DNA of 33,917 nt from a virus. Both the position numbers and the translations under genes were made by a program. The notes under the pieces are model-generated. The model had not been told where the DNA came from. It saw only the letters and a list, made by a program, of their open reading frames with translations, and did no database searches. Below, piece by piece: positions 2,470 through 23,712 of the stretch (position 1 is its first letter; each line of letters begins with the position of its first letter). The DNA lies in IMG/VR virus record IMGVR_UViG_3300043465_000731, positions 1 through 33,917 of that record. The stretch is one strand, 5' to 3'.

Positions 2470-3081
2470 CTAGTATACCTTTCTGTTGTTTGACTTCTTC
2501 ATGTCTCTGCTAACTCTGAATAGTTTTTTCCAATAAGTCATAGTAGTTTTGCCTGTTTGGAACAAACGGGCAATACCAGCATAACTTTTTCCTTCGGTGT
2601 CAATCATAAGTGTGCTAAAGTTCCGAAACTGTTCTTCGGTCATAACATGTTTATGTTTATTGACACTAACGGCACAGATAAACTGTTCTAACGAAACGTT
2701 AAGCCGTTTTAATATATCTATAATGTGCAGCGTTGGGTGTTGATGTGCGGCAGCCATTACGCTGTCACGAATCAGTTTCCATTTATGCAAATTAGTGTAA
2801 GATTCAGGAAACCGTAAGGCTACGATGTCGGATTCATTGGCATAATAAATTCCGCCATACTCCGCCCACAGGTCATGAACATACAATAATGTTTCTAAAT
2901 ATTCTAGAGTTGTGTCATTAGTCCATTCGTGACCTTTAACATAACCTAAGATTTCTGCTATTCGTTCACCTTGCCACATGTCAAACACAGCGTCTTTAGA
3001 CACCATAACTGACTTGGCAGGGCGAACGTCACATAAACACGATTCTTCGTGTTTTGTTACACCGCATTGTTCAATCGTCAT
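2470..3081 (-). CDS. Hypothetical early protein with C-terminal helix-turn-helix-like segment
   Basis: The 203-residue protein has no recognised family. Near the C-terminus, at about residues 164-188, the segment GKSYAGIARLFQTGKTTMTY followed by WKKL has the spacing of a resolvase/Hin-type helix-turn-helix (S-x-x-x-I-A-x-x-F-x-x-x-x-x-T), and the tail is basic (RDMKKSNNRKV). The N-terminus carries three Cys (in CGVTKHEESCLC). Its start overlaps the upstream gene by 11 bases, which indicates coupled translation. A DNA-binding regulator, or a subunit that recognises replication DNA, is plausible. The helix-turn-helix reading is by eye. Confidence 0.7.
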   Translation of the reverse strand: MTIEQCGVTKHEESCLCDVRPAKSVMVSKDAVFDMWQGERIAEILGYVKGHEWTNDTTLEYLETLLYVHDLWAEYGGIYYANESDIVALRFPESYTNLHKWKLIRDSVMAAAHQHPTLHIIDILKRLNVSLEQFICAVSVNKHKHVMTEEQFRNFSTLMIDTEGKSYAGIARLFQTGKTTMTYWKKLFRVSRDMKKSNNRKVY

Positions 3082-6723: not shown

Positions 6724-6753
6724 ACTTCAACACACACGTCCACGTCCGTGTAT
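6724..6753 (-). repeat. Hairpin repeat copy 1 (ACTTCAACAC family)
   Basis: The unit ACTTCAACACACACGTCC is followed by a partly inverted copy. Arms 6732-6738 and 6747-6753 pair over 7 bases with one position that is G-U in the leftward RNA. It lies between the 48-residue gene and the AAA+ gene. Confidence 0.6.
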
Positions 6754-8596: not shown

Positions 8597-8997
8597 TATT
8601 TACCTCTTGCTTTTTTCCCTGCTGCTTTTGCTTTCGGGGTGTTGGGTACGAATTGTTTGCCTGCTTTGGTTCCTGCACGTTTTTTGCGGCTGGTTGCAGC
8701 GTATTCTGCTTTACTTAAAGACTTTATGGCTGCTGAAGGTAGATAGCGTTCACCTGTGGCTTTTGGTCCTTGGGTGGATGGTTTACCTGATTTGGTTCGC
8801 CATTTTTCTTTACCCCATTTGGATAAAGATTTTTGTTTACTGGTTTTGTTTCCTGTGTATCCGCCGCCTGCGGCTTCATATTTTTGGGCTACTAGTTGTG
8901 CTTTACGTGCCGACCATTGCCCTGAACGTCCACCTTTGGTTCCTGCTTTTACTGACGCTACTATTTGGTCACGTAAACTAGGTTTAGTATATCCCAT
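8596..8997 (-). CDS. DUF5872-like basic phage protein
   Basis: The N-terminal half reads MGYTKPSLRDQIVASVKAG, then GRSGQWSARKAQLVAQKYEA, and the C-terminal half holds ERYLPSAAIKSLSKAEYAAT followed by KKRAGTKAGKQFVPNT, the pattern of DUF5872-type proteins. The tail (KAKAAGKKARGK) is highly basic, consistent with nucleic-acid binding. It overlaps the upstream gene by 14 bases and the downstream one by 1. No activity is established for the family; a virion or DNA-binding role is inference. Confidence 0.72.
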   Translation of the reverse strand: MGYTKPSLRDQIVASVKAGTKGGRSGQWSARKAQLVAQKYEAAGGGYTGNKTSKQKSLSKWGKEKWRTKSGKPSTQGPKATGERYLPSAAIKSLSKAEYAATSRKKRAGTKAGKQFVPNTPKAKAAGKKARGK

Positions 8998-9205
8998 TAC
9001 GTTTCTTTGATTTTGGATGCGATTTGCCAGCCATCATACTGCCGTTAGGCATTTTGTGCATGGGTTTTGATTTAGATTTTTTAACATCAATTTTTGCTGT
9101 TGGTGACATTTTCATTGCAGCCTTATCACGTTCGTACTGACGTTTACCTTCAGGTGTGTACGCATAGTGTTTAACTTTTCCGTCTATTCGCTGTAGTTTT
9201 GGCAT
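8984..9205 (-). CDS. Small basic protein (73 aa), first gene of the leftward trio
   Basis: AGAGGAAG lies 4 bases upstream of ATG 9205, a good ribosome site. The 73-residue product is lysine-rich with a PNGSMMAGKSHP segment near the C-terminus, a pattern I associate with short phage proteins next to DUF6321-like genes. There is no catalytic motif. It heads the leftward operon that faces the terminase operon across the control region at 9206-9471. Confidence 0.68.
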   Translation of the reverse strand: MPKLQRIDGKVKHYAYTPEGKRQYERDKAAMKMSPTAKIDVKKSKSKPMHKMPNGSMMAGKSHPKSKKRNGIY

Positions 9206-9248
9206 ACACTTCCTCTGTCTTTGCTGTAAATAGTATTGTCCTTAAATC

Positions 9249-9266
9249 GCCACCCTAAGGGGTGGC
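9249..9266. terminator. 7-bp hairpin in the divergent region
   Basis: GCCACCC-TAAG-GGGTGGC is a perfect 7-bp stem with a 4-base loop. No T tract follows on either strand, so it is more likely an mRNA leader hairpin of the leftward trio than a terminator. Confidence 0.3.
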
Positions 9267-9329
9267 TATCTAACAGTCAGGCACTGACCCCCCTCAGTCC
9301 CCCCTACTAAAAAGAGTGCTGTTCCCTAA

Positions 9330-9344
9330 TGAGAATCATTCTCA
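9330..9344. promoter_or_regulatory. Fur/Zur-type 7-1-7 operator
   Basis: TGAGAATCATTCTCA is a perfect 7-1-7 palindrome that matches the Fur-family consensus TGATAATNATTATCA at 13 of 15 positions (symmetric G/C changes). It lies midway between the two divergent operons. A host or phage metal-sensing regulator could bind it. The match is clear; function is inferred. Confidence 0.5.
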
Positions 9345-9388
9345 ATATCTTGTTACAGCCGAGACAGCAAAAGGGTTTCATCTAAAAA

Positions 9389-9432
9389 GTTACATTAATG
9401 TTACAGAAATGTTACACAAATGTCACAAAGAT
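9389..9432 (+). repeat. Four-copy 11-bp iteron array (GTTACAnnAAT)
   Basis: GTTACATTAAT, GTTACAGAAAT, GTTACACAAAT and GTCACAAAGAT follow each other without gaps, starting at 9389, 9400, 9411 and 9422. An 11-bp period puts each copy on the same helix face, as in arrays bound by a cooperative regulator or initiator. It ends about 40 bases before the terminase small subunit gene. Confidence 0.7.
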
Positions 9433-9453
9433 TTAACATTCCCATAACAATTA

Positions 9454-9473
9454 GGAACAGGTAACTCTATTGT
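9454..9473 (+). promoter_or_regulatory. GGAAC-N9-TATTGT element (copy A)
   Basis: GGAAC at 9454-9458 is followed after 9 bases by TATTGT (9468-9473), directly at the start of the terminase small subunit gene. It is one of six similar elements upstream of rightward genes. Confidence 0.4.
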
Positions 9474-9918
9474 GATGACGGAATTATTGGATGCCCGACA
9501 ACAAAAATTTTTAGACTGGCTATGTACACCTAGTGTCGCTCGTGTCCCTTCTTCTCAAGAAAAGTATGCTCACGTTGAAAACATTGATGAGTCTACGTTG
9601 CGTAGGTGGAAGAAGAAACCTACGTTTAAGGCTGCTTGGGAAAGGCGTGTTGCGGAGTCTCAGGGGAGTCCTGAGCGGACTCAACAGTTGTTGGATAATT
9701 TGTTTCAACGTGCTTTGGATGGTGATAACAATAGTGCTAAGTTGTATCTTCAGGCTACTGGGCGGCTTGCGCCTGTTCAGTTGCAGGTTGAACATTCTGG
9801 TAAGGTTTCTGAGTTGTCGGATGCACAGTTGTCTGAGTTGATTGTGGCTTCTGCTGCCAGTGAGCAACAGTCCCGTTTAGATTCAACAAAGACAGTGGGG
9901 GTTTATGAGTCAAACTAA
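9472..9918 (+). CDS. terS: Terminase small subunit (TerS), phBC6A51-type HTH
   Basis: The N-terminal part holds a helix-turn-helix of the TerS type: SSQEKYAHVENIDESTLRRW followed by KKKPTFKAAWERRV, where a recognition helix ends in L-x-x-W-K-x-x-P-x-F. The remainder is helical and acidic, as expected for the oligomerisation part. TerS recognises the packaging site and loads the large subunit. The start is GTG 9472 or the adjacent ATG 9475; neither has a strong ribosome site. It is unusual that TerL lies 5.7 kb downstream, after tail and lysis genes. Confidence 0.75.
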   Translation: MMTELLDARQQKFLDWLCTPSVARVPSSQEKYAHVENIDESTLRRWKKKPTFKAAWERRVAESQGSPERTQQLLDNLFQRALDGDNNSAKLYLQATGRLAPVQLQVEHSGKVSELSDAQLSELIVASAASEQQSRLDSTKTVGVYESN

Positions 9919-17226: not shown

Positions 17227-17230
17227 TTTG

Positions 17231-22453: not shown

Positions 22454-23712
22454 TGGCTAGAGGTGGTTCTTCTGCGGACGATATCGCCAGGGCTATTGTT
22501 CAACGACTTTTAGAAGCCCGCAAACCTGCTGTCTCTGCTGTAAAGAATGTTGCAGATGATGCTGGCAAACTTGCCAGCACAGCAAAATCTGCTGTTCAAA
22601 AGGCTTTAGGCAAAAGTGGAAAACCTAAGGTTAGTAGCAAAACAGCAAAGACAGTAACCCCAAAACCGAGCAAGCCTGCTTCTAAGCCGATGACAAAGGA
22701 ACAGCGCCGTTTGGCTAACCAGCAGGCTGACGCTGAACGCCGTGCTATGGGTGCTGATAAAAGAGCAGCAGATAAAGCGGCACAGAAAAAAGCAAACCGA
22801 GAACGATTCCTTAATAAAGAAAAAAGTAAAGTTGAAACAAGGATGACTCCGCAGATGATGCGTCAACAAGGCTATCCTCTTATTAGTAATACTTTAACCA
22901 AGAAAATGAACTCGGTTGATTATAAGACTCGTTTGCTTAAAAACGAGGGCGGCATGTTAGATAAACAAACAAACATAGAGGCTTATAAACTTGTAAAATT
23001 ATATGAAAAAGATGGTCGCAAACTTACTCCTAAGCAGGTTGCGCAAGTTCGTAAGAATGTTGAGTCAGAAATTAAATCTTTTGCTGAAAGAAACTTGGAC
23101 AAACTATCCAGAGGTGTTGATACTAGGTTAAAGAATTTGGGTAAGATGACTCCAGAGGAGTTGGACACTGAGGCTGGTAGAATGGCTTTTCGTGCTAAGA
23201 AAGATAAAATCCGAAAAGGTGTTGAACCTAAGGATTCTCGTAGGGATTATCAAATTCGTCAAGATAAAGAAACGAATATGCGTCTTGAGGCTTTGGAACG
23301 TAAACGTGCAGATGCTAAACTTAATAGAGGTACTGGTACTTCAACTGGTCCTAAGGTTAAGGGTCCTGAGTCTGCTAAGGCTAGGGAGAAGCGTTTGTCT
23401 GCTTTGGCTTCTGAGCGTAGACTTGTTGCGCAACAGGAAGCAAATGCGGCGAAACGTTCTAAGGTTAAGCCTTTGGCTGTGTCGGCTAAGAAGTATAGTG
23501 CTGAGGAACTTAAGAATGTTAAATTGACCACATCTGCTGATGTGGCTGCTGCAAGAGCGGTTCTTGGCAAGGGTGGCGAGGGTTATAATATTAAACCTAG
23601 TGCGCCTTTACGTTCTGGCAGACGACAGGAAACTGCCGAAGAACTTAATGCACGTTTGTCAGCGTTCCGAGCAAAACAATCAAAAGGTTCTAAAGCACCA
23701 AAGAGGAAATAA
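22453..23712 (+). CDS. Large basic Lys/Arg/Ala-rich virion-associated protein
   Basis: The 419-residue protein starts ARGGSSADDIARAIVQRLLE, echoing its upstream neighbour's amphipathic start, and continues with histone-like stretches (KAVTPKPSKP-type runs) and charged helices. The C-terminal part has SAKKYSAEELKNVKLTTSAD, then EGYNIKPSAPLRSGRRQETA. It is strongly basic along its length. A DNA-binding or internal virion role is likely by composition. It overlaps its neighbours by 1 base on each side. Confidence 0.62.
   Translation: MARGGSSADDIARAIVQRLLEARKPAVSAVKNVADDAGKLASTAKSAVQKALGKSGKPKVSSKTAKTVTPKPSKPASKPMTKEQRRLANQQADAERRAMGADKRAADKAAQKKANRERFLNKEKSKVETRMTPQMMRQQGYPLISNTLTKKMNSVDYKTRLLKNEGGMLDKQTNIEAYKLVKLYEKDGRKLTPKQVAQVRKNVESEIKSFAERNLDKLSRGVDTRLKNLGKMTPEELDTEAGRMAFRAKKDKIRKGVEPKDSRRDYQIRQDKETNMRLEALERKRADAKLNRGTGTSTGPKVKGPESAKAREKRLSALASERRLVAQQEANAAKRSKVKPLAVSAKKYSAEELKNVKLTTSADVAAARAVLGKGGEGYNIKPSAPLRSGRRQETAEELNARLSAFRAKQSKGSKAPKRK

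Follow-up and report, generated by a model that had tools for sequence, protein, structure and literature searches.

The window, by which we mean the whole stretch of DNA analyzed, is a 33.9-kb virus record from IMG/VR in which genes for terminase, portal, capsid and an SU10-type adaptor run rightward and genes for a nuclease, a CobS-like AAA protein and DUF proteins run leftward. The near-complete relatives retrieved are mostly 36-38 kb in length, with several being circular assemblies whose start points differ. One gene has homologues in mycobacterio- and gordoniaphages, a weak hint of an actinobacterial host. A contig from a Pseudomonadales MAG (L132, JALRKV010000030.1) was rejected as host evidence as it appears to be a chimera, only approximately 700 bp of phage sequence (9600-10318) being joined inside a bacterial monooxygenase-like gene, and no phage match besides this contig was detected in 392 Pseudomonadales genomes.

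The terminase operon and a leftward operon diverge from an intergenic region which contains a tandem array of short repeats (Table 1). No sigma-70-like promoter could be recognized between 9000 and 9600 on the + strand. The small terminase subunit gene (terS) has no good Shine-Dalgarno sequence at 9472-9475, in contrast to most genes elsewhere in the window. RNA structure in the 5'-UTR was set aside, the folding energy not being unusual (z -0.98). A further proposal, that the array and a leftward DUF5872 gene form one module, was suggested at first and then broken by the array occurring without the gene (L010) and the gene without the array (L037, L038, L040).

Table 1. Features of the divergent region and the genes that border it (window coordinates).
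Feature	Position	Strand	Remarks
First gene of divergent leftward operon	8984..9205	-	
Divergent intergenic region	9206-9471		Holds the array, directly before terS
Left arm of flanking inverted repeat, CTGTTCCCTAA	9319..9329	+	Repeat flanks palindrome and array
Fur/Zur-like palindrome, AATGAGAATCATTCTCAATA	9328..9347	undefined	Conserved in relatives
Tandem array, six in-phase 11-bp units	9388..9453	+	7-bp TGTNACA-like core and 4-bp spacer; read from the sequence, kept in relatives
Stretch of the preliminary description	9389..9432	+	Three exact copies and one degenerate copy
Right arm of flanking inverted repeat, TTAGGAACAG	9451..9460	+	Between array and terS; TAGGGAACA in most distant relatives
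terS, small terminase subunit, first gene of rightward operon	9472..9918	+	phrog_2538, PF13022; start codon GTG 9472 or ATG 9475

The preliminary description had reported four copies of GTTACAnnAAT at an exact period of 11 bp. Three copies are indeed exact (9389, 9400, 9411), but the fourth (9422, GTCACAAAGAT) carries two mismatches. The period itself is borne out and runs on further than was described, with the window when read in 11-bp steps giving units at 9388, 9399, 9410, 9421, 9432 and 9443, in order AGTTACATTAA, TGTTACAGAAA, TGTTACACAAA, TGTCACAAAGA, TTTAACATTCC and CATAACAATTA. The array is real, and it extends beyond what was first reported. Its TGTNACA core is near-palindromic, successive units have T, T, T, C, A and A as the variable base, and the surrounding intergenic stretch is A/T-rich. 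Across the whole window, GTTACAnnAAT with one mismatch was found 22 times against 17.6 expected; the consensus is not enriched and the array is therefore local, not part of a dispersed motif. The isolated GTTACA that had been noted at 9352 is present in the window and absent from three relatives (L012, L017, L019). In Markov simulations, three exact, evenly spaced copies of a hexamer appeared in 3 of 60 runs, so three copies alone are only modest evidence and it is the relatives that must decide.

Conservation in these relatives is decisive for the reality of the array. We fetched 48 terS relatives and compared 32 distinct upstream sequences, of which 21 (terS identity 72-100%) have at least three in-phase units in the same place, most of them four to seven; four have only two units and the remaining seven, all distant sequences, have one or none. 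A run of three units occurred in 0.1% of shuffled sequences. The variable core base is T, C or A and never G in 104 units, although these were collected at no more than one core mismatch and their invariance is thus partly the result of selection. A Fisher test on aligned blocks is a cleaner measure, with rows that are related sequences: in ten close sequences the core positions T3, A5, C6 and A7 vary in 0/21 cases compared with 13/38 elsewhere (p = 0.0013), and in the group with TGTAACA units the same positions vary in 0/16 compared with 6/24 (p = 0.035). Loss of period or copies in close relatives had been named beforehand as an outcome that would tell against the array; the picture is mixed, in that the close relatives keep it, one (L017) is shorter by exactly one 11-bp unit with the phase retained, and distant relatives do not have it. 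The nearest annotated relative, MW202803, has no array, and named isolates gave only short, statistically weak matches. A second TGTTACA array, found approximately 1.2 kb before terS in three genomes (G006, G013, G014), has the stop codon of a leftward gene on one side and a terminator-like hairpin on the other; it does not clearly lie at a promoter, and a simple promoter model leaves it unexplained.

The array also has conserved neighbors. The spot occupied by the Fur/Zur-like palindrome is taken in group 2 relatives by an 11-bp direct repeat, ACAAGTTNAATACAAGTT. The Vibrio Fur consensus, AATGATAATAATTATCATT, is a 19-bp inverted repeat (PMC7536154), and the candidate Fur/Zur box AATGAGAATCATTCTCAAT is a few bases off this consensus. 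Palindrome and array are together enclosed by an inverted repeat reading CTGTTCCCTA / TAGGGAACAG, with conserved arms TGTTCCCTA/TAGGGAACA that are found in nearly all relatives, array-less ones included. The arms pair in many relatives, with CCG/CGG replacing CTG/CAG in L037, and in two sequences (L043, L044) they lie just ~22 bp apart.

Arrays of the same type occur well beyond this phage family. When IMG/VR was scanned for runs of four TGTNACA units spaced by 11 bp, 97 stretches matched, of which 92 are non-coding (not within long open frames) and 82 do not belong to the family of the window's phage. The control at period 10 gave 11 stretches (5 non-coding), that at period 12 at least 120 (112 in coding repeats, 8 non-coding) and the reversed motif, again at period 11, yielded 10 (8 non-coding), such that non-coding 11-bp TGTNACA arrays are approximately tenfold over the spacing and reversal controls. 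Many of the arrays outside the family come from T4-like phages that have a GC content of ~33% and a gene distantly resembling the cyanophage 'peptidase'. In this group the array is followed by TTTACA-N17-TATAAT, the -35 element starting 10/11 or 20/21 bp past the last unit, and these offsets, one turn apart, would be the pattern expected of a helically phased upstream regulator site. The promoter-like sequence adjoins 31 of 66 distinct arrays compared with 0.6 expected from shuffles; many of the 66 are mutually related, however, and are not independent events.

Among known operators, two kinds resemble the array. The PHO box of PhoB/PhoP is likewise a tandem of 7-bp half-sites with a 4-bp spacer, thus of period 11, located upstream of genes (PMC4832192, PMC10294691), and for Mycobacterium PhoP the 4-bp spacer is strict and three or four motifs are bound better than two (PMC4832192). 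The array has this head-to-tail layout, but consists of four to six units and precedes a terminase operon. It also differs at position 4, which is T, C or A in the array; on the + strand half of the units have a T, which is never seen there among the 58 E. coli sites compared and speaks against strict PhoB specificity on this strand. With a matrix built from those sites (PMC10294691), the best matches coincide with the array, both in the window and in seven relatives (G001-G004, G006, G007, G013), and when read on the minus strand as TGTAACATTTCTGTAACA it reaches a score of 17.6, exceeding the upper quartile of the known sites (16.2). The strand favored by the matrix differs between lineages, whereas a degenerate GTnAC fits all lineages in one orientation. 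Such a core is found in the second kind, the actinobacterial operators of MtrA (GtnAcC-n5-GTnAcn; PMC13189361) and AfsQ1 (GTnAC-n6-GTnAC; PMC6988585), which share with the array the GTnAC core, its degenerate third base and the 11-bp period. These usually comprise two half-sites, however, and an actinobacterial host is only hinted at by the homologues mentioned above. Phage-borne operators under a host two-component regulator have a precedent in the control of cyanophage genes by host PhoB (S-PM2d, P-SSM2 pstS), although the cyanobacterial box is PyTTAAPyPyT/A and its targets are metabolic or replication genes and not a terminase operon (PMC10976474). The authors of that study caution that Pho boxes cannot be predicted reliably in phages (PMC10976474).

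Taking the position, layout and conservation of the repeats together, the array is probably a cis-regulatory operator, placed ahead of the terminase/late operon in the intergenic region from which the two operons diverge. This retains and narrows the suggestion of the preliminary description that such repeats bind cooperative regulators: same-face sites before the terminase operon, with period and in-phase copies kept, stand, and the layout is now specifically of the OmpR/PhoB type. Each TGTNACA with its 4-bp spacer would serve as one landing site, the 11-bp period would allow several protein subunits to stack cooperatively on one helix face, and binding of a host regulator would tune late-gene, and perhaps divergent, transcription to the signaling state of the host. 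Transcriptional action at the window's array, the family of its binder and the sign of regulation are what we infer here. By analogy with the operators above, the chances are roughly even that the array is bound by a response regulator which the host supplies and which belongs to the winged-helix OmpR/PhoB family, resembling PhoB/PhoP, MtrA or AfsQ1. The OmpR-type Trans_reg_C domain was detected in none of 11 phage genomes and in 11 of 14 control genomes, and a regulator supplied by the host is therefore most likely.

A different binder is conceivable, in that the units could be symmetric 7-bp operators along which a phage-encoded homodimer, of the ribbon-helix-helix or small HTH kind, stacks. 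TGTNACA is palindromic, its variable base differs between units and between lineages, and the T,T,T,C,A,A run (often 2+2 along the array in the T4-like set) is what a symmetric dimer would lead one to expect and need not arise with a head-to-tail regulator. A divergent region with exchangeable neighbors, here the palindrome or ACAAGT repeats, also resembles a phage operator region. However, no RHH_1 domain was found in 13 genomes, and the presence of the array in unrelated phages points to a shared host factor, which makes a phage homodimer unlikely in our assessment. Neither of two phage proteins considered follows the array, with the protein at 2470-3081 and a sigma-region-4-like protein occurring in array-plus and array-minus relatives alike. 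The former had been put forward as a candidate binder and was dropped; it has no family match, and its mostly helical model gave no significant PDB match.

Both the packaging-site and the replication-iteron readings fit worse than the operator reading. Location directly upstream of terS, together with flanking TGTTCCCTA/TAGGGAACA arms kept in nearly all relatives, would suit a pac/cosB-type site that the small terminase subunit recognizes. We regard this as improbable, given that the array is not shared by all TerS homologues, being missing where TerS is 65-69% identical, that the arrays of other phages adjoin sigma-70-like promoters, and that no common contig ends are apparent at the array, through which circular assemblies run. 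Tandem repeats in an A/T-rich intergenic stretch are also reminiscent of origin iterons bound by an initiator, a role raised in the preliminary description for which no positive evidence emerged; no cognate initiator was recognized nearby among the genes scanned, the primase- and DnaB-like genes of relatives are located elsewhere, and distant relatives do without the array, leaving this reading very improbable. As for a functionless, drifting tandem repeat, chance can produce a three-copy hexamer in a sequence of this length, as the simulations above illustrate, but an invariant core between varying spacers, loss by a whole unit (L017) and promoter-phased arrays shared by unrelated phages make it scarcely credible.

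If the operator reading is correct, virion production in uncultured aquatic phages would be linked to host signaling through a site in front of the terminase/late operon. It is already known that host response regulators control a few metabolic and replication genes of cyanophages. In the open-access literature searched, neither arrays of four to six units preceding a terminase operon nor recurrence of this array type among unrelated phages was found, and a search for the motif in phages brought up no relevant paper. More speculatively, a widely conserved host two-component regulator may, via promoter-phased TGTNACA arrays, inform unrelated aquatic phages, and in the podovirus-like family of the present phage gate the packaging/late operon with a metal signal added from the adjoining Fur/Zur-like site; this broader picture is possible, though we consider it doubtful. 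As the TGTNACA motif at period 11 is searchable, the idea is testable across phages and candidate hosts.

Other motifs were observed in these genomes. The sequence GGGAAC(A/G)-N~9-TATA-like, usually TAGGGAAC, lies just before late-gene start codons in G004, G006, G007, G009, G013 and G014, and at 17230, 19481 and 21825 of the window, and is possibly a phage-specific promoter. Nine near-complete relatives encode a small protein with sigma-70 region 4 (22866-23219 in the oriented G001 genome), in a part missing from the window, which could recognize the GGGAAC motif. Finally, ACTTCAACACA(T/C)(A/G)CGTCC-like repeats at 6724, 7476, 7791, 7857 and 7936 of the window lie in non-coding DNA upstream of leftward genes and are possible early regulatory sites.
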